Source of the DNA: Arcticibacter eurypsychrophilus
GTDB taxonomy: Bacteria; Bacteroidota; Bacteroidia; Sphingobacteriales; Sphingobacteriaceae
DNA length: 64,000 nucleotides
Assembly (NCBI RefSeq): GCF_001730525.1
Contig: NZ_MDFN01000027.1
Coordinates: forward strand, 1-64,000
Reading direction: 5' to 3'
Shown: positions 3,523 through 46,228 of the stretch, one piece after another
Layout: every line of letters starts with the position of its first letter
How positions within the stretch are numbered: position 1 is the first letter of the stretch
The notes under the pieces: model-generated
Databases searched by the model: none
What the model was told of the DNA's origin: nothing
What the model saw: only the letters and a program-made list of their open reading frames with translations
Program-made: the position numbers and the translations under genes

Positions 3523-4107
3523 TTACTCTCTTCCATGAATTTTAACCCCTCGGTGCCTAAGATATTTATATAACGTCATTTTAGAAATCAAAAGTTCCTC
3601 AGCAATAGCGTTTACTCCTAGTTTCCGCTCATTATACAGCGTTTGAGCAAGCATGGCTGTCCGTTCGGCCTCTTTAGACAAGCCCTTGCTTCTGCCACCT
3701 TTTCTTCCACGAGCCCTGGCTGCTTCCAGACCGGACTTTGTTCTTTCCCTGATCAAGTCCCTTTCAAATTCAGAAAGGGAGGCGAAGATGTTAAAGATCA
3801 ATCTACCCTGAGCGGTAGTGGTATCAATATGGTCATTTAAAGATACCAGGCCAACTCCCTTCTTTTCAAAATCCGAGGCCAGCTCTAATAAGTGTTTCAA
3901 CGATCTGCCTAAGCGATCAAGTTTGTAGATGTAAATCACATCCCCCTTCCGCAAGATTTGTTGCATCGCAGAAAGTTCATGCCGTTCTGATTTAGCACCC
4001 GACGCCTTTTCCTGGAATATTTGTTCGCAACCCTCTTTGTTCAAAGCGTCCAGCTGCATTTCTAAATTTTGATCCTGGGTAGAAACCCTGGCATATCCTA
4101 TTTTCAA
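3523..4107 (-). CDS. tnpR: Serine recombinase / Tn3 resolvase (Pin/Hin family)
   Basis: This 194-residue site-specific recombinase should resolve transposon cointegrates at a res site. The N-terminal catalytic domain starts MKIGYARVST with nucleophile Ser9, followed by YIYKLDRLGRS and the FASLSEFERDLIRERT helix. The C-terminal 50 residues form a helix-turn-helix (GVNAIAEELLISKMTLYKYL). The length is normal for small resolvases and invertases. It is divergent from the transposase at 4329 with a 221-bp spacer that holds a res-like dyad, the usual Tn3 layout. It looks intact even though the transposase is frameshifted. Confidence 0.9.
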   Translation of the reverse strand: MKIGYARVSTQDQNLEMQLDALNKEGCEQIFQEKASGAKSERHELSAMQQILRKGDVIYIYKLDRLGRSLKHLLELASDFEKKGVGLVSLNDHIDTTTAQGRLIFNIFASLSEFERDLIRERTKSGLEAARARGRKGGRSKGLSKEAERTAMLAQTLYNERKLGVNAIAEELLISKMTLYKYLRHRGVKIHGRE

Positions 4108-4131
4108 TTCTGTATACTTTTATCCGTTGAT

Positions 4132-4159
4132 GCAATCAAAATTAATATACTTTGATTGC
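4132..4159. promoter_or_regulatory. res-like resolvase binding site
   Basis: A 28-bp dyad has 9-bp arms GCAATCAAA and TTTGATTGC separated by ATTAATATAC. Its length and AT centre fit a crossover subsite of a Tn3 res site, and it lies in the tnpR-tnpA spacer. A second palindrome, ACTTGTACAAGT, is at 4237-4248 and could be an accessory subsite or operator. Confidence 0.6.
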
Positions 4160-4328
4160 TATACAAGTTTTATTTACTAATTTCATATACATAGACTCAT
4201 TTTGAGATTTCACAATAGTCCTTCTCTACTCTTGCGACTTGTACAAGTTGAGCACCGTTTGTTTGTACAGCAAAATCAGAAACAAAAGTAATTCATACGA
4301 TCTTTGTTACTTTCAATAAACTCTACCT

Positions 4329-7300
4329 ATGCCAAGAAAAGATTACCTATCTGCTGAAGCAAGGCACCGGTTTGATAACCCTCCAGTTCTTTCAGGGGAA
4401 CAACGCCAGATATTTTTGCAGGCACCTACCTGGGCAACGGAATATGTCAAAGGTTTGCTGACCCCTTCGAATAAAGTCGGTTTTATTTTGCAGGTTGGTT
4501 ATTTTAGGATAGTCAGTCGCTTCTTCGTTTCGAGTCGTTTTCATCAGGCAGATGTTGATTTTATAGCAGATAAGATTTCGGTAGATGCAAATGGAGTAAA
4601 TATGGCCGATTACCAGGGCAATACTTTTAGGCGGCATCAGGAAGATATCCTTGGCTTCTTTGGGTTTGCACCTTTTAGCAAATCTTCAAGTGAAGCCTTA
4701 TTGCAGGAAGCCGAACGGTTGGCACATGTACAGACCAGGCCGCACTTGATATTTGGCGGGATGGTCAGTTTCCTTCAAGAGCATCGTATAGAGATACCTA
4801 CTTACCAGGCCATACGCACCATTCTTGAAAAAGCCCTCGACAACTTTGAGCGGGATCTCGAATCTATACTTTCCCGGAATTTGACGCAAGAAGATATTCT
4901 TTTATTGGATCAGCTCTTACAGGAGCACTCTTCATATCAGGAAGATTCCAAAGCCCATTTGAAAATCAAGCGGTATCAAATTACTCTTTATAAAAAGATT
5001 TCCCAGTCCATGGAAGTTAAACACATCCGAGAACGGGTGAAAAATTTTCAGCACCTGAAAAGAATGTATCTGCAGTTGGTTCGGGTGGCCAAACGCTTAA
5101 AACTTTCGGATGCTGCTATCCAGTATTACGCAGAATACGTGATCAATAACCAGATTCCACAGGTTGCTACCCGGAGCACCATCAGGTACCTGCTCCTAAT
5201 CTTCTTTTATCATCCACCAATACTATCTGCTCGGTGATGCTCTTATTTTAACATTGAACAGTGCCGTTACCAATTATATCAACGGTTGCGAAAACCTCGT
5301 CAAGCAGGAACTGTATCAAAACCGGATGCAAACAGCCCAACTGGTAAGCAGTGTCGCCCAACGGAGCGTAACACATATTGATGTATTGACAACTATTGAA
5401 AAGATTATAGCAGATATAGCAATAGGGCCAGCTGAAAAGATAGACGCCATTGACCAGTTATTAAAAAAGAAACGCTTGTCTCAAAGATTGTTTCAAGAAG
5501 ATGAACAGCGACTTAAATCATTGAAGGAAGTCAACCAAAAAGTACACGACCGAGAAAATTACTACCTAATTTTAGAAAAGAACTCTTCAAAGCTTACTGG
5601 TAAGGTGGCAGACATTTTAAAAGTATTGGTTGCAGGAACTTCCTCTTCCGGAAAGGATATCCTTTCTGCTTTTTTTTACTATCAGGATAAAAATGGCTCA
5701 ATTACCTCAAGCGGAGCCGTACCGACAAGTTTTCTCAGAATGGAAGAACAGCAGCGTGTGCTCTCACCAGAAGGCAACCTCCGTACAGGCCTGTACAAAG
5801 TATTCCTTTTTAAGGAAATACGGGATGCCATTAAATCAGGTGCACTGGCGGTAGAATCTTCTTACGACTACCGTTCATTCGAAGAGTATATCATTCCGGC
5901 TGGTTTGTGGCAAAAAGAAAAAGAATTCTTGATCAAACAGGCCGGTATAACAGCCCATGCCCATCCAAGGGCAACGCTGCTAAAACTCAATGAAAGATTA
6001 AATGCACAGATCAAAAAAACGAATAATCAGCTTAGCGAAAACAAACAGGTATATTTTGATGCTGCAGGTGACTGGCACCTGATGAAAGATAAACGCTCCG
6101 AAGAGGAACCGGACGCTGAATCGCTTTATCCTCAAGAGTATATCATCCCGGTATTAGGAGTGCTTACCACCGTAGGAAATATTTGCGGCTTCACTTCTGT
6201 TTTTAACCATCACGGAATTGATTATGTGCCTAAGCGCCCCGAACAAAAACTGTTCTTTGCAGCTATACTCGGTTTTGGGTGCAATATTGGTATACGTAAA
6301 TTTTCGTTTATGTCAAAAGGTATCCGGACGAGTTCACTGGAGACTACCGCACTTCATTACTTTACGCCGGAAACACTGATCGAGGCGAATGATAAACTGC
6401 TTTCTTTTAGTAATTCTTTGCCTCTTACTTCGCATTTCCGGAAGGAAGAAGATTTTGTCCATACTTCCAGCGATGGGCAAAAATTCGATGTATCAGTGGC
6501 TTCTTTGGTTGCTTCACCTTCTTTTAAGTATTTCGGAAACGGCAGGGGCGTCACCCTATATTCTTTTCTGGATGAATCCGGCCAGCTCTTTTATTCCACG
6601 GTGTTCAGTGCCGCAGAACCCGAATCGCATTATGTGCTCGACGGATTGACACACAATGAAGTCGTCGTGCCTAATGCGCACTCAACGGACACCCACGGTT
6701 ATAGTGAACCTGTCTTCGCCGTAACAGGTCTTTTGGGCATCGAATTCCGGCCTAGGTTTGCCCGTTTCCATCACCAACAGTTATACTCCATTAATGAAGT
6801 CCGCACTTACAAGGAACAGGGGCTTAAAATCGTTCCCGACCTTAAGATCAACCTGGAACATTTGGAAAATAATTGGGAGGATATATTAAGGCTGGGATGT
6901 ACTATCAAGCTGGGGTACTCAAAAGCATCCACGTTATTTAGACGGCTAAACTCCTATTCTAAACAGCATCCTTTATATAAGGCACTAAAAGATTTGGGAA
7001 GGTTATATAAAACGGCCTATGTCTATCAATATATGGACGACGAACTGGTCCGTAAAACCGTATCCGGTTCGCTTTCCAAAATTGAAAGCAGCAATAACTT
7101 TTCAAAGGCGATCACAATTGGCAATAATCAGGAACTGATATGGGCTACCCGCAGGGAACAGCTAATTGCGGAGGGCTGTAAAAGGCTGATCGCCAATGCG
7201 GTTAACACCTATAATCTATTGCTGTTGTCGGAGAAGTTATCCCTGACCAATTCTGAAGAAGAAAAGCAAATCTTGTTAAAGAAAATCGTCCGTACGTCTA

Positions 7301-36215: not shown

Positions 36216-37547
36216 TTAAGATACAAGGGCTTTAACGGCCGCTTCTACTTTTGTAAAGTTAAAATTTGCTACAATAGCATGAAAGGAATCTGCAATTTCC
36301 TGATTACATAAATTGCCAATGCTTCCCTCGTGGACATGTTTAACGGATGCCGGGGCTTTAAAATTACCACTTTCAATTGCTAAACCCACTTTTTTATATG
36401 CTTCCCGGAAAGGCAATCCATTTAGAACTTCCTCATTCACGGCATCAACGCTGAAAAGGTAAGCATATTTTGGGTCATCCAGAATATCAGCTTTAATGGT
36501 GATATGCTTCAACATGAAAGCGGTCATTTCCAGACATTCATTCAATGAAATGAAAGCAGGGAAAAGGCTTTCCTTCAACAACTGAAGGTCGCGATGGTAA
36601 CCTGAAGGCAAGTTAGTCGTCATCATTGCAATTTCGTTAGGCATCGCCTGAATCTTATTACAACGGGAACGAATCAGTTCAAATACGTCAGGATTTTTTT
36701 TATGAGGCATAATGCTCGATCCTGTAGTCAGTTCATCCGGGAATTTAATAAAGCCGAAATTCTGATTGATAAACAGGCAAACATCCATGGCCAGTTTAGC
36801 CAGTGTGGCAGCAATGGAAGACATCGCCTGAGCGAGAATCCGTTCTGTTTTACCTCTCCCCATCTGCGCATAAACAACATTGTAGTTCATGGAATCAAAT
36901 CCTAAGAGTTCTGTTGTCATTGTACGGTTCAACGGGAAGGAAGATCCATATCCTGCAGCAGAGCCTAAAGGGTTTTTATTGCAGATTTTCCAGGCAGCAA
37001 GCATGAGCTCCATATCGTCGGCCAGACTTTCTGCGTAGGCACCAAACCATAAGCCGAAAGAAGAGGGCATAGCGATTTGAAGGTGTGTATATCCTGGTAA
37101 GAGTTTTTCTTTATGGGTTTCGCTTAATTCGATCAGCAGGTTGAATAGAAGAGTGGTATTCTCTACCATATTTCTAATTTCAGAACGAAAATAGAGCTTT
37201 AGATCCACTAACACCTGGTCATTCCTTGAACGTCCGCTATGAATTTTCTTGCCGGCATCACCAATGTGTTTAGTAAGCTGTAACTCTACCTGCGAATGCA
37301 CATCTTCAACGCCTTCTTCGATAGTAAAATTGCCGTCCTGAATATCCTGATAGATCACTTTAAGTCCTTTTTGAACAGCATCCAGGTCTTCTTTGTTAAG
37401 GAGGCCAATACTTTCAAGCATTCTGGTATGCGCCAGTGAACCCAGCACATCAGCCTCTGCCAGGAATTGATCCAGTTCACGGTCCTTGCCTACCGTAAAC
37501 TTTTCTACCGATCCGGACACTTCTTTATCTTTCTGCCAAAGCTTCAT
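36216..37547 (-). CDS. argH: Argininosuccinate lyase
   Basis: 443 residues: KIHSGRSRNDQVLVDLKLYF, LPGYTHLQIAMPSSFG and the fumarase/lyase signature TGSSIMPHKKNPD. Splits argininosuccinate into arginine and fumarate, the last step of the pathway. The upstream 253-bp spacer is built of degenerate copies of the argE 3' end, one of which touches the argH start codon. Confidence 0.97.
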   Translation of the reverse strand: MKLWQKDKEVSGSVEKFTVGKDRELDQFLAEADVLGSLAHTRMLESIGLLNKEDLDAVQKGLKVIYQDIQDGNFTIEEGVEDVHSQVELQLTKHIGDAGKKIHSGRSRNDQVLVDLKLYFRSEIRNMVENTTLLFNLLIELSETHKEKLLPGYTHLQIAMPSSFGLWFGAYAESLADDMELMLAAWKICNKNPLGSAAGYGSSFPLNRTMTTELLGFDSMNYNVVYAQMGRGKTERILAQAMSSIAATLAKLAMDVCLFINQNFGFIKFPDELTTGSSIMPHKKNPDVFELIRSRCNKIQAMPNEIAMMTTNLPSGYHRDLQLLKESLFPAFISLNECLEMTAFMLKHITIKADILDDPKYAYLFSVDAVNEEVLNGLPFREAYKKVGLAIESGNFKAPASVKHVHEGSIGNLCNQEIADSFHAIVANFNFTKVEAAVKALVS

Positions 37548-37850
37548 CTAGTCTATTATTTTGTTCTTAATGTATATTAAAATTCTTTCTTAGGATATTA
37601 TTGTATTTAATACCGCAATTTAACAATTCTTACCTATCGTCCCAATCACTCATTACCAATCCTTGGTAACCCTATTCTCCCTTTAGTATCGTATTGATCA
37701 GGTAAACCATTATATGTATTTCATTTAGTAAGGCAATGAAATTTAAAATTCCCTTTCTTGGATACTATTTGTTTTGATCACCTATTGTACCAATTCCTAT
37801 CTAGCGTATTATTTTGTTTAGTAAGGCAATGTATAGTAAAATCCCTTCAT
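37548..37850. repeat. Degenerate tandem copies of the argE 3' end
   Basis: Three related segments: the authentic argE end (37801-37850, CTAGCGTATTATTTTG...), one at about 37715-37775 sharing TTTAGTAAGGCAATG, and one at 37548-37610 (CTAGTCTATTATTTTG...). Read on the minus strand they encode GILLYIALLNKIIR-stop (argE), GILNFIALLNEI..., and RILIYIKNKIID-stop, so the copies derive from the same coding tail. Confidence 0.7.
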
Positions 37851-38877
37851 TAATCTCATCGGTATAAATATACTCGTCTGCCATGTGAGAGCGTCCAGAA
37901 TCACCCGGTCCTATCTTAAGGGATGGAATGCCTAGTAATGCCTGATCACTCGTTGTAGGGGACCCGTAAGTCTCTCTGCCAAGATGTATACCTGCCTGTA
38001 CAATGGGGTGGCTTTTATCGATTGATGAAGGTTTAAGTCGTAGGGAGCGAGGTTTGACTGTACAAGAAACATGAGATTTGATGATTTCCAGTACCTCTTC
38101 CATTGAATAAACATCTGTAACCCGCACATCAACAGTAAAGGTACATGTTGCAGGTACCACATTATGCTGAGAACCTGAATTTATGATTGTTACCGACATC
38201 TTAACCGGACCAAAAACATCCGACTCTAAAGGGAAGCGAAAGCTTCGAAACCATTCAATATCTTTAAGCGCCTTATAAATTGCATTATCGCCCTCTTCTC
38301 TTGCTGCGTGTCCTGCTTTACCAGTTGCTGTACAATCCAGCACCATTAAACCCTTTTCGGCAATAGCCAGATGCATCTTCGTTGGCTCTCCAACCAGAGC
38401 AAAATCAAGCTTACCTAAATCAGGGATAATCAATTCAATTCCGTTAAGTCCCGAAATCTCTTCCTCTGCAGTTGCAGCCAGACAAAGGTTATAACGCAAG
38501 CCAGTCTCCGCATAAAAATGCCTGAATACGGCGATTAATGAAACTAATGCCCCTCCGGCATCATTACTTCCTAATCCATATAATTTCCCATCTTCAACAT
38601 CCGGAGAAAAAGGATCCCTGGTATAGCCCATATTAGGCTTCACCGTGTCATGATGTGAATTAAGTAGTATGGTAGGCTTTAAAGGATCGAAGTATAGGCT
38701 ATAGGTCCAGATATTGTTCACCTTTCGCTTAAAAGGAATTCCATGCGATGAAAAAAAGCTTTCAAGCAGCGCTGCTGTACCATCTTCCGCTTTGCTTAAA
38801 GAGGGGATTGCAATCAGCGCTTGGAGTAAGCTTAAACTTTCAGCCGCAAGTTGATCAATCATCTTACTTACTTTCAA
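37801..38877 (-). CDS. argE: M20-family deacylase, acyl-ornithine/citrulline deacylase (ArgE-like)
   Basis: 358 residues. The metal site reads LLNSHHDTVKPN, LGSNDAGGALVS, TAEEEISGLNGIE and GEPTKMHLAIAEKG. In this operon it most likely removes the acyl group from N-acylcitrulline made by ArgF'. Its 5' end overlaps proC by 14 bp, so the two are translationally linked. Confidence 0.88.
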   Translation of the reverse strand: MKVSKMIDQLAAESLSLLQALIAIPSLSKAEDGTAALLESFFSSHGIPFKRKVNNIWTYSLYFDPLKPTILLNSHHDTVKPNMGYTRDPFSPDVEDGKLYGLGSNDAGGALVSLIAVFRHFYAETGLRYNLCLAATAEEEISGLNGIELIIPDLGKLDFALVGEPTKMHLAIAEKGLMVLDCTATGKAGHAAREEGDNAIYKALKDIEWFRSFRFPLESDVFGPVKMSVTIINSGSQHNVVPATCTFTVDVRVTDVYSMEEVLEIIKSHVSCTVKPRSLRLKPSSIDKSHPIVQAGIHLGRETYGSPTTSDQALLGIPSLKIGPGDSGRSHMADEYIYTDEINEGILLYIALLNKIIR

Positions 38878-39685
38878 TATATAGTTCTCCGGCTTTAACT
38901 GCGGAAAGTTTTATTCCCTTGATCAGTGAGGAACTAAATCCCTGGTGTTCCATTTCATTCAATCCGGCTATGGTACATCCCTTCGGAGAGGTTACCTTAT
39001 CAATTTCCTGTTCAGGATGACTGTGATGTTGTAATAACAAATCAGCAGCACCCTTGGCTGTCTGAACCGCCATCTTCAATGCTACATCAGCATGAAACCC
39101 AATCTCTACTCCGCCTTGTGATGCTGCCCTTATCGCCCGCAAAAAGAAAGCAATACCACAAGCACACAATGCAGTGGCTGAAGTCATCAATTCTTCATTA
39201 ATAACGACTACAGAACCAACCGTTTCAAACATGCTCTGCACTAATGCAACCTGCTCTGCTGAAGCATTGTCCGAAGCAATACAAGTCATGGATTGTCCAA
39301 TTGAAATGGCTGTATTGGGCATAACCCGTACTACCTGTACATCCTGACCTAATTTTGATTTAATATCCTTACAGCTAACTCCTGAGATTACAGAAATTAC
39401 AAGGTGTTTACTTGCATCAATGACAGGTTGAATTTCATGTAATAGGCCATCCAGTTGCTGAGGCAGAACTGCCAGAATCACGATTGAGGCATTCTGAACC
39501 GTCTCAGGATTATTAGCCGAGACCTGATAACCCATTTGTGCCTGCTCGGTGAGGTTAGTTACATTCCGTCTGGTTAATAATATAGATGCTGCATCCTGGT
39601 AATCTGCTTTCACTAAGCCATAAGCAAGTGAAAGACCTATATTTCCACTTCCTAGTATCGCAATGTTTCCATGTATATTTTTCAT
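38864..39685 (-). CDS. proC: Pyrroline-5-carboxylate reductase
   Basis: 273 residues with Rossmann motif ILGSGNIGLSLAYGLV, then VVRVMPNTAISIGQSMT, ATALCACGIAFFLRAI and the substrate-binding KVTSPKGCTIAGLNEMEHQG. Makes proline from P5C using NAD(P)H. Its place within the arginine operon links proline and arginine supply, both from glutamate. It follows a repeat-filled spacer. Confidence 0.95.
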   Translation of the reverse strand: MKNIHGNIAILGSGNIGLSLAYGLVKADYQDAASILLTRRNVTNLTEQAQMGYQVSANNPETVQNASIVILAVLPQQLDGLLHEIQPVIDASKHLVISVISGVSCKDIKSKLGQDVQVVRVMPNTAISIGQSMTCIASDNASAEQVALVQSMFETVGSVVVINEELMTSATALCACGIAFFLRAIRAASQGGVEIGFHADVALKMAVQTAKGAADLLLQHHSHPEQEIDKVTSPKGCTIAGLNEMEHQGFSSSLIKGIKLSAVKAGELYIESK

Positions 39686-40036: not shown

Positions 40037-40843
40037 TTAGGCAAATAACCTTGTGCCAAATAACTCCTTGCCAAGCAGTTGAAGTTCATCCGATTTTCCG
40101 ATATAAACCTCAGTCACCCCGTTCTCAATGGCTTGAAAAGCATTATGGAGCTTAGGCAACATGCCCCCGGCAATGACATTATCTTCTTTAAGTCTTTTGA
40201 ATTCAGCTCTATTAACCTCTCTTAAAACCGAATGATCATCATCTACATCTAAAAGTACACCCTTTTTCTCAAAACAGTAAACCAAACTCACATCATATAA
40301 AGAGGAAAGTGCTACAGCCAACGCTGAAGCAATTGTATCTGCATTTGTATTTAGCAACTGACCTTCTCCATCATGTGTAATGGCAGAAAAGACAGGGACA
40401 ATCCCTGATTGCAGTAAGGTACTTAACTTTTCCTGATCAACTGAGGTATCAGATAAATCGCCTACAAAACCATAGTCAATATCTTTTACAGGTCTTTTTG
40501 TTGCTTTAATTAGATTTGCATCCGCTCCTGTTAGTCCTATTGCGTTGCATTCGTAGCGTTGAAGTTGTGCAACTACGTTTTTATTGATCAGTCCGGCATA
40601 AACCATCGTCACCACCCGTAGGGTCTCAATATCTGTTATTCTTCTGCCATCCACCAGTTTAGGCTCAATGCCCATGCTATGCGAAAGGTCGGTTGCAATT
40701 TTCCCTCCACCATGAACCAGAATCTTATACCCCTTTAAAGCAGAGAAGTCTTTCAGAAAATTGTGCAGGTTCTCGGAGTTGTCAATTACATTGCCTCCTA
40801 TCTTTATGACATATAAGGTTGATAATTCTTTTTTTGAATCCAT
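40037..40843 (-). CDS. argB: N-acylglutamate kinase
   Basis: From the ATG at 40843 (MDSKKELSTLYVIKIGGNVI; 268 aa), chosen because the longer start lies inside argF' and adds nonhomologous residues. Motifs: VIKIGGN, VHGGGKIATDLSHSMGIEP, VDGRRITD, GLTGADANLI, LNTNADTIASALAVAL and ENGVTEVYIG. Phosphorylates acetyl- or, given the ArgF' type, succinyl-glutamate. Confidence 0.93.
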   Translation of the reverse strand: MDSKKELSTLYVIKIGGNVIDNSENLHNFLKDFSALKGYKILVHGGGKIATDLSHSMGIEPKLVDGRRITDIETLRVVTMVYAGLINKNVVAQLQRYECNAIGLTGADANLIKATKRPVKDIDYGFVGDLSDTSVDQEKLSTLLQSGIVPVFSAITHDGEGQLLNTNADTIASALAVALSSLYDVSLVYCFEKKGVLLDVDDDHSVLREVNRAEFKRLKEDNVIAGGMLPKLHNAFQAIENGVTEVYIGKSDELQLLGKELFGTRLFA

Positions 40844-40851
40844 TAGCCGAT

Positions 40852-41811
40852 TTACAAAGAGGTTAGAAGGTTCTTTAATACCGTTTGTGCTGCCCATAAG
40901 CGGTTTCCCGCTTCCTTGATCACCAAAGATTCAGCGCTATCCAGAATTTCTGATGAAAGTTCTAAATCTCTTCTTACCGGCAAACAATGCATCACTTTAG
41001 CTTGATTGGTTATTTTAAGGCGCTCCAGGTCTAACATCCATCCCTCACCACCTGGTAAGATCTTACCATAATCCTGGTAGCTGGACCAGTTCTTTACATA
41101 TATAAAGTCTGCATCTTTCAATGCTTCATCCTGATCGTAAACAATTGTAGTATTGGGAGTAAACTCTTCGGCCAGTTCATATCCCTTGGGATGCGTAATG
41201 ACAAAGTCTATCATTCCTTCTGCTTCAGCACGACACATCCATTCGGCAAACGAATTAGGCACTGATTGAGGCAAAGGTTTAATATGAGGAGCCCAGGATA
41301 ATACCACCTTAGGCCGCACTGACTTTTTATATTCCTGAATAGTGATCAGGTCAGCAAAACTCTGAAGGGGATGACGGGTAGCACTTTCCAGACTTACTAC
41401 AGGAATGTTGCTGTATTTTATAAACTTATTGAAGATATCTTCGCTATAATCCGCTTCCCTGTCCTTTAAACTGGGGAAAGAACGGAGGCCCATGATATCG
41501 CAATACTCACCAATCACGGCTGCAGCTTCCCGAATATGTTCCACTGTAGTACCATTCATGATTACCCCGTCCCTGGTTTCCAATGCCCAGCCTTCCTTAT
41601 CCATGTTCATCACCATCACATTCATCCCCAGGTTCATAGCCGCTTTTTGAGTACTTAAACGGGTACGCAGACTAGGATTTAAAAAGATAAGCCCTAAAGT
41701 CTTATTCTTTCCAAGATGTTGCAGCGCATAAGGGTCAGTTTTTAAAGAAAGAGCTTCTTCAACAAGCTCATTTACATTGGGAACATCATGAACGGAAGTA
41801 AATAATTTCAT
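40852..41811 (-). CDS. argF': N-acyl-L-ornithine carbamoyltransferase, succinylornithine type (ArgF')
   Basis: 319 residues. Carbamoyl-phosphate motif FLNPSLRTRLSTQKAAMNLG, RHPLQSFADLITIQEYKK, HCLPVRRDLELSSEIL. It resembles Bacteroides SOTCase rather than classical OTCase. At the specificity position (Pro90 in B. fragilis SOTCase, Glu92 in Xanthomonas AOTCase, as I recall) this protein has Val90 in GTTVEHIREA, which argues against acetylornithine and for succinylornithine. Makes N-acylcitrulline. Confidence 0.9.
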   Translation of the reverse strand: MKLFTSVHDVPNVNELVEEALSLKTDPYALQHLGKNKTLGLIFLNPSLRTRLSTQKAAMNLGMNVMVMNMDKEGWALETRDGVIMNGTTVEHIREAAAVIGEYCDIMGLRSFPSLKDREADYSEDIFNKFIKYSNIPVVSLESATRHPLQSFADLITIQEYKKSVRPKVVLSWAPHIKPLPQSVPNSFAEWMCRAEAEGMIDFVITHPKGYELAEEFTPNTTIVYDQDEALKDADFIYVKNWSSYQDYGKILPGGEGWMLDLERLKITNQAKVMHCLPVRRDLELSSEILDSAESLVIKEAGNRLWAAQTVLKNLLTSL

Positions 41812-41846: not shown

Positions 41847-42980
41847 TTAAGCGTTTAATATCCGACCAAATGCTTCAAGGAAACGATCCGCATGAGCCTT
41901 AGTCAAATTCAGAGCAGGCAGTAACCGGATTACATTAGGTTTAGCCTCGCCTGTAAAAATATGATGTTTAAATAGTAAATCTTTCTTAACATGCGACAGC
42001 TCTTCAGGAAGATCGATGCCGATCATTAAACCCCGTCCTCTTACTTCTCTTACCTGCTTGAATTTATTTAACTCAGTAGTAAGATACCCCCCTATTGAAG
42101 AGGCGTTTTCCATGAGATGATCCTGCTCAATAACTTCAAGAACAGATAGTGCCGTAGCACAGGCCAGATGATTACCACCAAAAGTAGTCCCCAGCATGCC
42201 GTGCCATGGTTTAAACTTAGGCGCAATAGATATACCCGCTACCGGAAAACCATTTCCCATACCCTTAGCCATCGTATATACATCCGCATCTACTTCTGCA
42301 TAATCATGAGAGTAAAATTTACCTGACCGGCCATAACCGCATTGTACGGAATCAGCAATATACACCGCATTATACTCATCGCATAAAGAACGAATTAATT
42401 GCAAGAATTCAGTGCTGGCAGGTTTAATTCCTCCTACTCCCTGAATACCTTCTATCAATACGGCACAGATCTCATTTCCATAGGCATTAAAAGCATCCTG
42501 CAGTGCTTCCAGATCATTATGCTTCAAAAATACCACATGATCTGTTTCATTCACCGGTGCGATGATCTTCGGATTATCTGTACACGATACCGCTAATGAA
42601 GTCCGCCCATGAAAAGCTCCTTTAAAGACAATAACCTTTTTCCTGCCATTATAAAATGAAGCCAGCTTTAAAGCATTTTCATTTGCTTCCGCTCCTGAGT
42701 TACATAAAAAAAGTTGATAATCAACTTTTCCTGATACATGACCAAGCTTTTCCGCTAACTCTTCCTGTCCTCTGATACGGATAGAATTAGAATAAAAGCC
42801 AATTTTATTCAGCTGATCAGTAAGTCGTTCTACGTAATGCGGATGCGTATGGCCAATTGATATAACCGCATGACCACCATAAAGGTCAAGATACTCTTGC
42901 CCATTATTGTCCCATACCAGGCTTCCTTTGCCTTTTACAATTTCAATGGGGTTTAATGGATATACATCAAATAATTTCAT
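41847..42980 (-). CDS. argD: N-acylornithine aminotransferase
   Basis: 377 residues, class III PLP aminotransferase: NSGAEANENALKLASF, FKGAFHGRTSLAVSCT, VYIADSVQCGYGRSGKFYSH and the cofactor Lys in TMAKGMGNGFPVAGI. One oddity: the usual DEVQ(T/S)G after the beta strand is DSVQCGYGRSG, with Ser replacing Glu. Converts N-acylglutamate semialdehyde to N-acylornithine. 10 bp after argC. Confidence 0.92.
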   Translation of the reverse strand: MKLFDVYPLNPIEIVKGKGSLVWDNNGQEYLDLYGGHAVISIGHTHPHYVERLTDQLNKIGFYSNSIRIRGQEELAEKLGHVSGKVDYQLFLCNSGAEANENALKLASFYNGRKKVIVFKGAFHGRTSLAVSCTDNPKIIAPVNETDHVVFLKHNDLEALQDAFNAYGNEICAVLIEGIQGVGGIKPASTEFLQLIRSLCDEYNAVYIADSVQCGYGRSGKFYSHDYAEVDADVYTMAKGMGNGFPVAGISIAPKFKPWHGMLGTTFGGNHLACATALSVLEVIEQDHLMENASSIGGYLTTELNKFKQVREVRGRGLMIGIDLPEELSHVKKDLLFKHHIFTGEAKPNVIRLLPALNLTKAHADRFLEAFGRILNA

Positions 42981-42990
42981 CTCCTAATAT

Positions 42991-43977
42991 TTAAAAAGCT
43001 GTTGCTTTTAACTTCAATCCGGTCTGTTCTTCCAGACCGAAAATAAGATTCATGTTTTGAACTGCCTGTCCCGACGCTCCCTTTAACAGATTATCAATAA
43101 TACTCACAATCAATAACTTATCACCGTGTTTCTCCACATATAAAAAACATTTATTGGTATTGACCACCTGTTTCAAATCAATATTCTTTCTCATCAAGTG
43201 TGTAAAGGGATGCTCTTTGTAGTACGCCTCATAAAGCGTAACGGCCTCTTCTTGCGTTAAAGAGGATTTTGTATATACCGACGCAATGATTCCTCTTGAA
43301 AAATCGCCCCGATAAGGAATAAAGTTAAGTTGATCTTTGTTCAGTGATGATCCTGCCTGATGAAGCGATTGAGTAATTTCATTCAAATGCTGATGTTCGA
43401 ATGCTTTATAAACAGACGAATTATTGTTCCTCCAGCTGAAATGGGTAGTCTGACTCAAGCTCTGACCCGCACCTGTAGACCCTGTAGTAGCCGAAATATG
43501 CACCTCATCTGTTAAAACACCTGCAGCAGCTAAAGGCAGCAAAGCCAGCTGAATACAAGTAGCGAAACATCCCGGATTAGCAATATGCCGCGCCTTTTTT
43601 ATGGCATCCCGTTGTAGTTCAGGGAGTCCGTAAACAAAATCACTTCCTTTGTAAGTCGTATTGTTGCTTAGCCTAAAATCCTGACTTAAATCAATCAAAT
43701 GAATCTTATTGTCTATCTCATGGCTCTCCAGAAACTTCCTTGAATCACCGTGACCAACACACAGAAAAAGAACATCAATGTCCTGTGAAAGGGTCTGAGT
43801 AAACACCAGGTCAGTATCGCCTGTAAGATCAGTATGAACATCTGAAATAAGGTTTCCTGCATTACTATTGCTATGTACGAAAGTGATTTCCACTTGGGGA
43901 TGATTGACCAGTAAACGGAGAAGTTCTCCCCCTGTATAGCCGGCACCACCGACAATTCCGGCTTTAATTTTCTTCAT
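42991..43977 (-). CDS. argC: N-acyl-gamma-glutamyl-phosphate reductase
   Basis: 328 residues: GIVGGAGYTGGELLRLLVNH at the NADP fold, catalytic Cys in ANPGCFATCIQLALLPL, TGSTGAGQSLSQTTHFSWR and the closing KGASGQAVQNMN. Reduces N-acylglutamyl phosphate to the semialdehyde. 22 bp after argG. Confidence 0.95.
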   Translation of the reverse strand: MKKIKAGIVGGAGYTGGELLRLLVNHPQVEITFVHSNSNAGNLISDVHTDLTGDTDLVFTQTLSQDIDVLFLCVGHGDSRKFLESHEIDNKIHLIDLSQDFRLSNNTTYKGSDFVYGLPELQRDAIKKARHIANPGCFATCIQLALLPLAAAGVLTDEVHISATTGSTGAGQSLSQTTHFSWRNNNSSVYKAFEHQHLNEITQSLHQAGSSLNKDQLNFIPYRGDFSRGIIASVYTKSSLTQEEAVTLYEAYYKEHPFTHLMRKNIDLKQVVNTNKCFLYVEKHGDKLLIVSIIDNLLKGASGQAVQNMNLIFGLEEQTGLKLKATAF

Positions 43978-43999: not shown

Positions 44000-45196
44000 T
44001 CAAGATTTGGAGGCGTTTACTTTATGCCAGATCGATACCTGGTTACCAAATATTTTAGAGAATCCCTTTACGTCATCTCCGGTATATCCTTCATTCATTT
44101 CACCATAGCTACCGAACTTACTACTCATTAAATCATTATCCGATTCAATTCCCAGTACAACAAAACGATAGGGAAATAATTGAATAAACACTTTTCCGTT
44201 AACCGTCTTTTGTGAGTTACTCAGGTAAGCTTCAATATCACGCATAACAGGGTCATGAAACTGGCCTTCATGCATCCAGTTGCCATAAAACATAGACAAC
44301 TGATCTTTCCAGCTTAACTGCCACTTGGTTAAAGTATGTTTTTCCAGCGCATGGTGTGCTTTGATAATAACCATTGGAGCGGCTGCTTCAAAACCAACAC
44401 GTCCTTTAATTCCAATGATTGTATCTCCAACATGTATATCACGGCCTATTCCAAATGGAGCCGTAATAACCTGTAAAGCCTGAATGGCCTGCACCGGATG
44501 ATCATAATGTACGCCATTAACAGACGTAAGCTCACCCTTAGCAAATTCAAGTTCCAGATTCTCTGCATCTGTTTTTGTAACCTGAGTTGGCCATGCTTCT
44601 TCGGGCAACATACCGTTAGATGTTAAGGTTTCTTTACCCCCTACAGACGTTCCCCAAATTCCTTTATTAATTGAATATTTAGCCTTTTCCGCATTGATCT
44701 CTACGCCATGACGATGCAAATAATCAATTTCCTCATCACGGCTTAACTTCAAGTCACGAATTGGTGTAATAATACCTACACCTGGAATCAGGATATTGAA
44801 GATCATATCAAACCGAACCTGATCATTACCGGCACCTGTACTTCCATGAGCGACAAAGTCTGCATGAATATCCTTTGCATAATTTGCTATAGCAGTGGCC
44901 TGCGTAACCCTTTCAGCACTTACAGAAAGTGGATAGGTGTTGTTTTTTAATACATTACCATAAATTAAATAGCGCAATGAACTGTTATAATAGCCCTCAA
45001 CAGCATCTACTGCATGATGAGAAGTCACACCTAGAGCATACGCCTTTTTTTCAATTAGTTCCAGTTCTTCCTTGCTAAAACCTCCGGTGTTTACAATTAC
45101 CGAATGCACTTCAAGGTCAAGATCGCGGGATAAATAAATAGCACAGTATGAAGTATCTAATCCACCACTAAAGGCTAAAACAACTTTCTTTTTCAT
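44000..45196 (-). CDS. argG: Argininosuccinate synthase
   Basis: 398 residues. ATP-pyrophosphatase loop VLAFSGGLDTSYCAIYL, AHGSTGAGNDQVRFD, and IWGTSVGGKETLTSNG are visible. Couples citrulline and aspartate. It follows the GNAT gene by 47 bp and is the second gene of the operon. Confidence 0.96.
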   Translation of the reverse strand: MKKKVVLAFSGGLDTSYCAIYLSRDLDLEVHSVIVNTGGFSKEELELIEKKAYALGVTSHHAVDAVEGYYNSSLRYLIYGNVLKNNTYPLSVSAERVTQATAIANYAKDIHADFVAHGSTGAGNDQVRFDMIFNILIPGVGIITPIRDLKLSRDEEIDYLHRHGVEINAEKAKYSINKGIWGTSVGGKETLTSNGMLPEEAWPTQVTKTDAENLELEFAKGELTSVNGVHYDHPVQAIQALQVITAPFGIGRDIHVGDTIIGIKGRVGFEAAAPMVIIKAHHALEKHTLTKWQLSWKDQLSMFYGNWMHEGQFHDPVMRDIEAYLSNSQKTVNGKVFIQLFPYRFVVLGIESDNDLMSSKFGSYGEMNEGYTGDDVKGFSKIFGNQVSIWHKVNASKS

Positions 45197-45243: not shown

Positions 45244-45927
45244 TTAAGAATGAAGGACAGCGGTATACAGCATTTTTGCCGATCCCTTTAGTTTTTCTTC
45301 TATACGTTCAAATAACGACGACTTTCGGGTTACCTTACTTAGCTTTTCATCCTGCAACCTTTGCTTTTCTTCAAGCTCCTTCATTTTTTCCACAGGATCA
45401 TAAAGCATTGCTGTACACAGACAATTCTTTCTTTCCTTCATGGTCAGAATATCAAAATTCACACAACTCTTGCAGCCACTCCAAAATTTCTCATCTTGTG
45501 TAAGTTCGGAATAAGTTACCGGTTCATACCCAAGTTCTGAGTTAATTTTCATTACGGCAAGACCAGTAGTCAAACCAAAAATCTTAGAATCAGGGTATTT
45601 TTCCCTTGAAAGTTTAAATATTCTATTCTTTATGGCTTTAGCTAAGCCACACTTACGGTAAGGGGGATTGACAATCAAACCTGAGTTGGCCACAAATCCT
45701 TCATGCCCCCAGGTTTCGATATAACAAAACCCAGCCCATGTACCATCCTGATGAATTGCGATGACAGCCTTTCCTTCGCGCATTTTATTGGCCACGTATT
45801 CTGGACTTCTACGTGCTATTCCGGTTCCACGAGCTTTCGCGGATTCTGCCATTTCATCACATATCTGCTCTGCATAACTGGTATGCAATTCAGAAGCTAC
45901 TATTACAGAGAAATCTTTTTCGTTCAT
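45244..45927 (-). CDS. GNAT acyltransferase, probable N-acylglutamate synthase of the arginine pathway
   Basis: 227 residues. GNAT fold at 10-150 with acyl-CoA loop LIVNPPYRKCGLAKAIKNRI and GYEPVTYSELT; a Cys-containing segment GCKSCVNFDILTMKERKNCLC follows, then a charged helical tail (EKMKELEEKQRLQDEKLSK). It is the first structural gene of the arginine operon, and no classical argA or argJ is present in the window. I recall a Bacteroides gene of this kind (BT3761) being assigned as N-succinylglutamate synthase by fitness data; by position this is its likely counterpart. Confidence 0.75.
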   Translation of the reverse strand: MNEKDFSVIVASELHTSYAEQICDEMAESAKARGTGIARRSPEYVANKMREGKAVIAIHQDGTWAGFCYIETWGHEGFVANSGLIVNPPYRKCGLAKAIKNRIFKLSREKYPDSKIFGLTTGLAVMKINSELGYEPVTYSELTQDEKFWSGCKSCVNFDILTMKERKNCLCTAMLYDPVEKMKELEEKQRLQDEKLSKVTRKSSLFERIEEKLKGSAKMLYTAVLHS

Positions 45928-45997
45928 TTTATGAAAATCCGCTCTTCACGGAGGAAGACTATGACGTCTTTAGTTTTTCAGAAAAATTGTTAATTGA

Positions 45998-46016
45998 ATT
46001 CTGCGGGATGCAGAAT
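45998..46016 (-). promoter_or_regulatory. Hairpin in the arginine-operon leader
   Basis: Stem ATTCTGC/GCAGAAT with a 5-nt loop, about 28 nt after the leader ORF stop and 70 nt before the first structural gene. Flanking GAATTC copies (about 46028 and 45996) can form an alternative pairing that excludes this stem. The U-run (AATTTTTC) comes 10 nt later, so it is not a textbook terminator. Confidence 0.45.
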
Positions 46017-46043
46017 CTATAGAGGGGGAATTCATATTAGTTT

Positions 46044-46178
46044 TCAAACCCTAGTCAAAAAGGGTCGTCGGTGTCTGAACACCAACTTTGCATTGATATT
46101 CTTTTCACCTATCACAACAGTAACATACCCAATCAAAGCTGGGGATGCCGTAGTAATGTTAAAAAGAGAATTGTTCAT
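46044..46178 (-). CDS. Candidate arginine leader peptide (44 aa)
   Basis: ATG at 46178 (minus strand), stop TGA at 46046-46044. The peptide begins MNNSLFNITTASPALIGYVT and ends KLVFRHRRPFLTRV. Codons near the end are AGA CAC CGA CGA CCC TTT TTG ACT AGG: four Arg in the last ten residues. It lies about 36 nt after the predicted transcription start and 116 nt before the first gene of the arginine operon. Two small stems overlap the Arg codons (GGTGT/ACACC and ACCCT/AGGGT). This is the expected layout of leader-peptide attenuation: ribosomes stalling at Arg codons would alter the fold. No homologue could be checked. Confidence 0.5.
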   Translation of the reverse strand: MNNSLFNITTASPALIGYVTVVIGEKNINAKLVFRHRRPFLTRV

Positions 46179-46220
46179 TTCTATATGACTTACTAAATGG
46201 TAAAACTTAAAATTACTATA

Positions 46221-46228
46221 CAAAATTA
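46221..46228 (-). promoter_or_regulatory. Arginine operon promoter -7 element TAATTTTG
   Basis: An exact TAnnTTTG match on the minus strand in the spacer between ssb and the GNAT gene. Predicted start near 46214 gives a leader of roughly 290 nt. The -33 region is not clear. Confidence 0.55.

Follow-up and report, generated by a model that had tools for sequence, protein, structure and literature searches.

A conserved leader ORF with rare arginine codons before the arginine operon of Sphingobacteriaceae, a probable gauge of arginine supply

Control of arginine synthesis is usually described in terms of ArgR/AhrC or of T-box RNAs. For the his, trp, ilv and leu operons, ribosome-mediated attenuators are known in which a leader peptide rich in codons of the operon's end product acts on a terminator. 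The arginine leader analysed here shares with such attenuators a short upstream ORF, here preceded by a -7 element, with end-product codons clustered near the end of its predicted translation. It differs from them in the amino acid concerned, in that a terminator is not general among arginine leaders, and in its unusually fixed length. In the translation attenuation of the cat and erm genes, the next gene's start region is freed by a ribosome that stalls in the leader, and the stem hiding this region in cat uses the 3' part of the leader itself as one strand; the signals sensed there are antibiotics, not charged tRNA.

The use of Arg codons as a sensor is itself established in Salmonella orf34-speF and in Staphylococcus aureus rbfL. 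The Salmonella leader orf34 (speFL), which precedes speF, has 34 codons. Two of its Arg codons are consecutive and one more is next to the stop; when arginine is short, the ribosome pauses at the consecutive pair, and the downstream RNA fold and the access to the RBS change (PMC6386406). The likeness to our locus lies in a leader ORF with consecutive Arg codons. The differences are that ornithine decarboxylase and not arginine synthesis is controlled, that the peptide belongs to the gammaproteobacterial DUF2618, that Rho and RNase G are involved, that the sensing Arg codons are codons 12-13 and that the stop-adjacent Arg codon is dispensable. Our leader was not assigned to the SpeFL/orf34 family: an arginine operon lies downstream, and none of 35 leaders matched any Pfam-A family at E<=0.1. 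In S. aureus, rbfL is a short uORF in which the pausing of ribosomes at rare Arg codons serves to sense that arginine is limiting (PMC13009471); it differs in having 8 codons and in that its pause hides the RBS and lowers the expression of a biofilm regulator. In fungi, the arginine attenuator peptide is encoded by a uORF controlling an arginine-synthesis gene; this system (reviewed in PMC11550727) differs in being eukaryotic, in arresting at the stop codon at high arginine and in conserving its peptide sequence. Closer by phylum, strong clues for leader-peptide attenuation before amino-acid biosynthesis operons are given for Flavobacterium psychrophilum (PMC9723704); the passage on them names no amino acid, and arginine may be among them. 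Among the titles and abstract beginnings listed in searches of the open-access literature, no Arg-codon leader on a bacterial arginine biosynthesis operon was found. A previous sequence-only reading of this locus had proposed a candidate arginine attenuator and considered such leaders to be hardly described.

The window is the whole stretch of DNA analysed, 64,000 nucleotides of Arcticibacter eurypsychrophilus. On its minus strand the ssb gene (46795-46361, -) is followed by a 433-nt gap holding the leader, and then by a gene for a GNAT acetyltransferase. The leader ORF (MNNSLFNITTASPALIGYVTVVIGEKNINAKLVFRHRRPFLTRV; 46044..46178, -) runs over 44 codons from an ATG start to a TGA stop, and its Arg-rich C-terminal end reads RHRRPFLTRV. 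Four Arg codons, all read on the minus strand, make up this end: AGA (codon 35, 46074..46076), the rare pair CGA CGA (codons 37 and 38, 46065..46070, that is 46070-46068 and 46067-46065), which is the presumed sensor, and AGG (codon 43, 46050..46052). At the position of codon 43, Arg is found in 35/35 leaders of our alignment A1, and Gln in the leader of L298. From the leader stop to the GNAT start at 45927 there are 116 nt. The ORF, the four Arg codons and the spacer had been given by the sequence-only reading and were found to be right when re-read in the sequence. The leader-GNAT spacer contains a second ATG ORF (MNSPSIDSASRRIQLTIFLKN), which includes CGC AGA, at about 46035-45970 (-), in the window and in its near relative L002; it is not listed for L003. 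The string CAATTAACAA is found at 45996-45987 (-), and the same string or close forms of it recur in the leader-GNAT spacers of several clades, which are otherwise different.

Upstream of the leader, the string TAATTTTG (46221..46228, -) resembles the Bacteroidota -7 promoter element. The string TANNTTTG occurred within the 120 nt upstream of the leader start at 65 of 171 loci, compared with 1 of 171 equal-length control stretches taken from the downstream gene, and 64 of the 65 occurrences sit 25-54 nt from the leader start. The sequence-only reading had pointed out this element. No Rfam family matched above its gathering score within the window.

Nine arginine/proline genes, all on the minus strand, follow the leader in the order GNAT, argG, argC, argD-like, argF', argB, proC, argE-like, argH. 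The first one (GNAT, 45244..45927, -) matches Pfam PF00583, and NCBIfam models only below cut-off; its position in the operon suggests that it encodes N-acetylglutamate synthase. The argG gene (44000..45196, -) was recognised by Pfam over cut-off and by NCBIfam below it, argC (42991..43977, -) by TIGR01850 over cut-off, and the argD-like gene (41847..42980, -) by TIGR00707 as best model, below cut-off. They are followed by argF' (40852..41811, -; N-acyl-ornithine carbamoyltransferase-like by Pfam, with NF003384 best but below cut-off), argB (40037..40897, -; TIGR00761 over cut-off), proC (38864..39685, -; TIGR00112 over cut-off), an argE-like deacylase (37801..38877, -; Pfam, NCBIfam below cut-off) and argH (36216..37547, -; TIGR00838 over cut-off). 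The GNAT protein of Arcticibacter svalbardensis, in the same genus, is 100% identical to that of the window. Outside the operon, genome G000 carries a second GNAT paralogue, 55% identical (L300, about 3800-4376, -; G000:C35:7893-8369).

Conservation of the leader was measured on loci picked by the GNAT gene alone, which was found in 129 of 151 genomes of the family. Upstream ORFs of 35-70 codons with at least two Arg among the last 12 residues were retained. Such an ORF was found in 150 of the 152 loci, among which many genomes occur twice; the two failures are L057, with a 33-codon ORF ending IRPFPRR, and L217, where the contig end cuts it. Two of the 152 (L230 and L244) are Flavobacteriaceae, and their 36-codon ORF ending SPIRARA may be chance. 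When the filter was applied to shuffles of 25 of the regions, 7 of 100 passed; raising it to three Arg left 3 of 100 shuffles and 19 of the 25 real regions. The Arg-rich ORF end is therefore kept in relatives that keep the operon start, as the sequence-only reading had proposed to check. The GNAT-picked loci comprise 122 distinct leaders, of which 55 have 44 codons, 42 have 41 codons and the rest 36-48; three or four Arg are present in the last 12 residues of 106 of them.

A profile built from 35 leaders matched 232 of 250 genomes of the order at E<=0.1 among the matches listed; this cut-off would admit up to 25 chance matches, and the matches listed end at 2.7e-6. A GNAT gene lay downstream in all 70 profile-picked loci that were fetched. 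As these 70 loci are not independent evidence of presence, 150/152 is the unbiased figure. Together, the 152 and the 70 loci form a pool of 222 (L101-L128 and L131-L173 being outside it), and the analyses by group were carried out on 172 distinct loci, the 122 distinct leaders above and 50 distinct profile-picked ones. Eighteen genomes had no profile match. Six loci from them were read upstream of GNAT (L294-L299), and a like ORF was present in all six (in L298 by eye); divergent leaders are present in G004, G029, G046 and G007, while G005, G030 and G056 lack a GNAT match too, and G154, G174, G180, G203 and G209 were left out of this follow-up. A pattern search for the leader gave nothing in L303 and L304, with a broken GNAT and a contig edge, respectively.

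The leaders were grouped by their end motif. The window type ends like RRPFMPRV and has 44 codons in 22 of 30 leaders. The Sphingobacterium group, comprising Sphingobacterium, Parapedobacter and Olivibacter, ends RRPILPRA or RRPIMPRA (44 codons in 43 of 45). The Mucilaginibacter type has an RRRxxxPR end and, by definition, fewer than 44 codons (41 in 38 of 49). The RQ type, from the large genus g14, ends RQxxTPRI; it makes up 33 of the 172 distinct leaders, and all 33 have 44 codons. Over the 172 loci the spacer between leader stop and GNAT varies from 81 to 153 nt.

We propose that the cell probably gauges its arginine supply by the speed of the ribosome over the rare Arg codons of the leader. 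The arginine operon mRNA would begin with the 44-codon leader, and a ribosome translating it would stall on the CGA CGA pair when charged tRNA-Arg is scarce. With plentiful arginine it would reach the stop codon and leave, upon which the leader end would fold into a stop-codon hairpin and a helix closed from the Arg-codon zone, and the folded end would hide the start region of the first gene. A stalled ribosome would cover that strand, so that the start region stays open and the operon on. In the Sphingobacterium, Parapedobacter and Olivibacter group, the Arg codons themselves would be the strand pairing with the ribosome-landing site of the first gene, while in the window's genus the output could be translational or a terminator. 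Taken as a whole, with the stall at CGA CGA and the hiding of the start region, this codon-reading leader is the best explanation that we can offer, and a likely one; the tie between leader and arginine level is one that we infer.

In the window, the local hairpin GACCCT/AGGGTT (46047..46066, -) covers Arg codons, and one like it is found in 7 of the 30 loci of the window's group. The sequence-only reading had named two competing stems, GGTGT/ACACC and ACCCT/AGGGT; the window has both, but among the 30 loci GGTGT/RCACC is restricted to L001-L003, and an ACCCT/AGGGT-like stem to those 7. Checked in this way against relatives, the two stems were not supported as the working switch and were dropped. 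A stop-codon hairpin of the AUGCC..GGCAU type is present, instead or as well, in 15 of the 30 loci; in the Mucilaginibacter and RQ types it did not stand out as a feature. Codons 34-35 (TTCAGA, 46074..46079, -) are predicted, from the fold and from relatives, to form the 5' strand of a long-range closing helix with TCTGAA (45977..45982, -). The complement lies 54-56 nt before the GNAT start in the five loci of the window's genus (5/5), with one compensatory change, TTCAGA/TCTGAA to TTAAGA/TCTTAA; in the window's group at large, such a hexamer occurs somewhere in the region in 12 of 30 loci, against 4.9 in shuffles. Because this helix lies further upstream (codons 34-35 with 45982-45977), the output step is least certain in the window's genus. 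The fold further predicts the hairpins P2 (GATTCTGC/GCAGAATT, 45997..46017, -), H1 (AAGAC/GTCTT, 45955..45970, -) and H2 (TCCGT/GCGGA followed by TTTT, 45938..45952, -), the last being terminator-like in L002, and a TTCAT-AAA-ATGAA hairpin over the GNAT start codon (45923..45935, -), which a stem finder also returned in L002. A pairing of the Arg codons with H1, considered by eye, was rejected as its changes did not compensate. In the window's group, the test for a pairing of the leader's 3' strand with the start region of the next gene, as in translation attenuators of the cat/erm type, was negative, with 7% of 30 loci at p<=0.05. RNAalifold run on whole-group alignments gave almost no structure, because the folds differ between clades.

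The pairings are better defined in the Sphingobacterium group. There, a hairpin joins the Leu-Pro codons to the stretch after the stop: its 6-nt arm, of which three types exist, has a partner of at least 5 pairs in 47/47 loci, and three double changes of this stop-codon hairpin were placed on the tree of 45 loci. The loop of this hairpin, made up of the Arg-Ala-stop codons (CGAGC or CGGGC), can also contact the loop of the hairpin that follows (GCUCG or GUCCG), this second loop being located by its likeness to two consensus strings. At position 3 of the contact we counted 19 A-U, 23 G-C and 2 G-U pairs and 1 unpaired case among 45 loci, with 3 double changes. Finally, the Arg codons CGACGACCY can pair with RGGUCG, whose first base lies 13-16 nt from the GNAT AUG at almost every locus. 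The variable position of this landing-site duplex is C-G in 19, U-A in 16, U-G in 8 and unpaired in 2 of the 45 loci, with 1 double change; this count omits two of the 47 loci (L050 and L042), which have no GGUC before the gene, and the GGUC anchor makes four of the seven pairs uninformative. Outwards, the sixth and seventh pairs are formed in only 36 and 25 of the 45. With at most 40 loci tested per group, the energy of the duplex beat shuffles (p<=0.05) in 78% of 40 Sphingobacterium-group loci, 7% of 30 of the window type, 3% of the Mucilaginibacter type and 0% of the RQ type. Each of the 33 RQ-type loci (for instance L061-L069) has, as judged by eye from the stems, a possible hairpin (TTCGTTA..TAATGAA or TTCGTT..AACGAA) that covers or touches the start codon of GNAT; this points to control of translation start.

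The main alternative for the output is classical transcription attenuation, in which the stalled ribosome would decide whether the RNA just before the first gene folds as an antiterminator or as an intrinsic terminator (H1/H2). Hairpins followed by a T-run were detected in 11 of 16 sampled loci of the window type and 12 of 16 of the Sphingobacterium group, and by eye the stems of H1 and H2 change in sequence among relatives while the pairing stays. However, they were detected in only 3 of 16 Mucilaginibacter-type loci and in 0 of 16 of the RQ type (7 of 15 among 'other' loci), so that no terminator common to the groups was found in these 16 loci per group and 15 others. Shuffles scored as well as the real hairpins in 27, 16, 42 and 64 of 64 trials for the window, Sphingobacterium, Mucilaginibacter and RQ groups, respectively; no conserved antiterminator was found, and in several loci the T-run can pair instead with the first codons of the gene. 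We regard transcription attenuation as possible, though somewhat doubtful. For the sequence-only reading, which had proposed the locus as a candidate attenuator, the Arg-codon leader reading arginine supply is strongly supported by its conserved frame, length, Arg end and CGA codons and by the failure to detect ArgR, but termination as a general output is not supported. In a folding model with a ribosome footprint, run on 24-25 loci per group, the mean unpaired probability of the start region rose from 0.34 to 0.40 in the Sphingobacterium group, going up by more than 0.1 in 9 of 24 loci and down in none; the three other groups gave 1 up and 2 down of 25, 0 of 24, and 1 up of 24. This leaves three readings: co-transcriptional steps escape the model, clades differ in their output, or the proposed output is wrong.

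We then considered selection on the leader, using pN/pS values pooled over related pairs with unsaturated synonymous change, which are to be taken as descriptive. In two groups, the window type and that of Sphingobacterium, amino acids change freely over codons 2-30 (pN/pS 1.04-1.13) but are constrained over the last 14 codons (0.59 and 0.31, respectively); this drift leaves the reading frame, the start and stop codons, the length and the Arg-rich end intact. Whole peptides are somewhat conserved in the Mucilaginibacter type (0.60) and the RQ type (0.42), the latter also keeping more of its N-terminal sequence (0.47). Codon choice is conserved as well. In the window type and the Sphingobacterium group, 74 of 75 loci spell the Arg pair CGACGA, and CGACGA with a third Arg codon is found in 49/49 Mucilaginibacter-type leaders. 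Of the 603 Arg codons that the 172 leaders have within their last 12 codons, 309 are CGA, compared with 46 of 654 (7%) in 46 genes of the window, where it is the rarest Arg codon. The RQ type has the weakest Arg signature of the four groups, with only two Arg codons in the last 12: CGG followed by CAA, CAG or CAT, and a later CGN. Comparison of the genomes thus shows selection on the leader ORF as such, on how long it is, on the Arg residues at its end and on the use of rare CGA codons. Codon starvation by itself leaves the strict leader length unexplained.

Outside the family, the leader profile matched 27 of 295 genomes of a class sample at E<=0.05; nine are family members and the other 18 are about the level of chance, so distant leaders were sought by their position before GNAT instead. 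In a class sample of 119 genomes, 43 outside the family have GNAT, and 42 upstream regions were read (G328 was not fetched, and L133, a family member, was left out). Of these 42 loci, 23 carry an ORF that begins with ATG and has three or more Arg among its 12 final residues, against 2.9 in dinucleotide shuffles, and 11 have four or more Arg, against 0.7; about three of the 23 may be chance. None of Lys, His, Leu, Ser, Pro, Ile, Gly and Thr showed a comparable excess at the ORF ends (the largest being Ser, 7 against 5.2). The ends vary, with VPFFPRR, SSRRRPMFRSRI, RRPFSRRPARV and the 19-codon MKQVLLNYRSLRRRPYAAG among them, and this variety would suit a device that reads codons.

These data bear on nascent-peptide arrest, whereby free arginine (or ornithine) would stall the ribosome through a peptide in the exit tunnel, as for the fungal arginine attenuator peptide and SpeFL. 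A length of mostly 41-45 codons, a conserved end of RRPxMPR plus one residue before the stop, and the fairly conserved whole peptide of the RQ type, whose pattern suits arrest as well, all speak for it. Against it, residues 2-30 drift in two groups with pN/pS near 1.1, distant families keep only the Arg residues in varied contexts, with some ORFs of just 19-25 codons, and a synonymous choice such as CGA would be needless for a device reading the peptide. We therefore consider arrest by the peptide unlikely. It is more improbable still that the leader serves only for translational coupling to the first gene, or for keeping Rho off the RNA, arginine not being sensed. Such a role would accord with the little switching seen in the folding model, but Arg alone of the nine residues is clearly enriched at upstream ORF ends outside the family, the rare CGA pairs are conserved, and the leader is absent before carA: in carA upstream regions of the same family, a like ORF was found in 4 of 30, against 2.3 in shuffles. 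An ordinary small protein working in trans, for which the conserved frame and length could be quoted, is highly improbable given codons 2-30 devoid of amino-acid constraint in two groups, conservation that lies in the end, where codons also take part in RNA pairing, and 0/35 leaders in a Pfam family.

The codon-reading leader is also to be viewed in the light of ArgR. ArgR (PF01316) was detected in 0 of 61 genomes of the family; as a positive control, the same model found it in 9 of 14 well-known genomes, including a Bacteroides. In the class sample, PF01316 was over cut-off in 6 of 119 genomes, and in three of them argR lies directly before GNAT, at the usual place of the leader (L171 990-1460; L172 268-807; L173 332-856). 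At these three loci an Arg-ended ORF is absent from the stretch read, which lies largely inside argR, and from the 370-380 nt before argR. Over the 42 outside loci, argR was found in 0 of 23 with a leader and in 3 of 19 without (one-sided P 0.084). Repressor gene and leader may thus swap at the same place, a lead that three cases make suggestive only. Since rare Arg codons are clustered before the operon and ArgR was not found, arginine is probably gauged by codon reading, and a sensor of this kind is well supported, at the level of sequence, by its frame, its length, its Arg-rich end, its rare CGA codons and the lack of a detected ArgR. The proposed output half appears only as covarying pairings in one branch.

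In a family in whose sampled genomes no ArgR was found, the leader would be the arginine control of the operon. Going further, we tentatively suggest, as a plausible view rather than a firm one, that an Arg-codon leader of nearly fixed length replaces ArgR in Sphingobacteriaceae and, in varied form, in much of Bacteroidia, and that in one branch the sensing codons themselves hide the landing site in a compact loop-loop fold, the stalled ribosome being both sensor and key. If true, the codon-reading leader would explain how the operon is controlled where 61 sampled genomes of the family show no ArgR, and would account for a conserved, unnamed ORF in over 200 searched genomes. Arginine supply in Bacteroidota would also gain a marker, and two questions could be studied in a natural setting: what favours pairs of the rare CGA codon, and what holds the leader near 44 codons while its sequence drifts.
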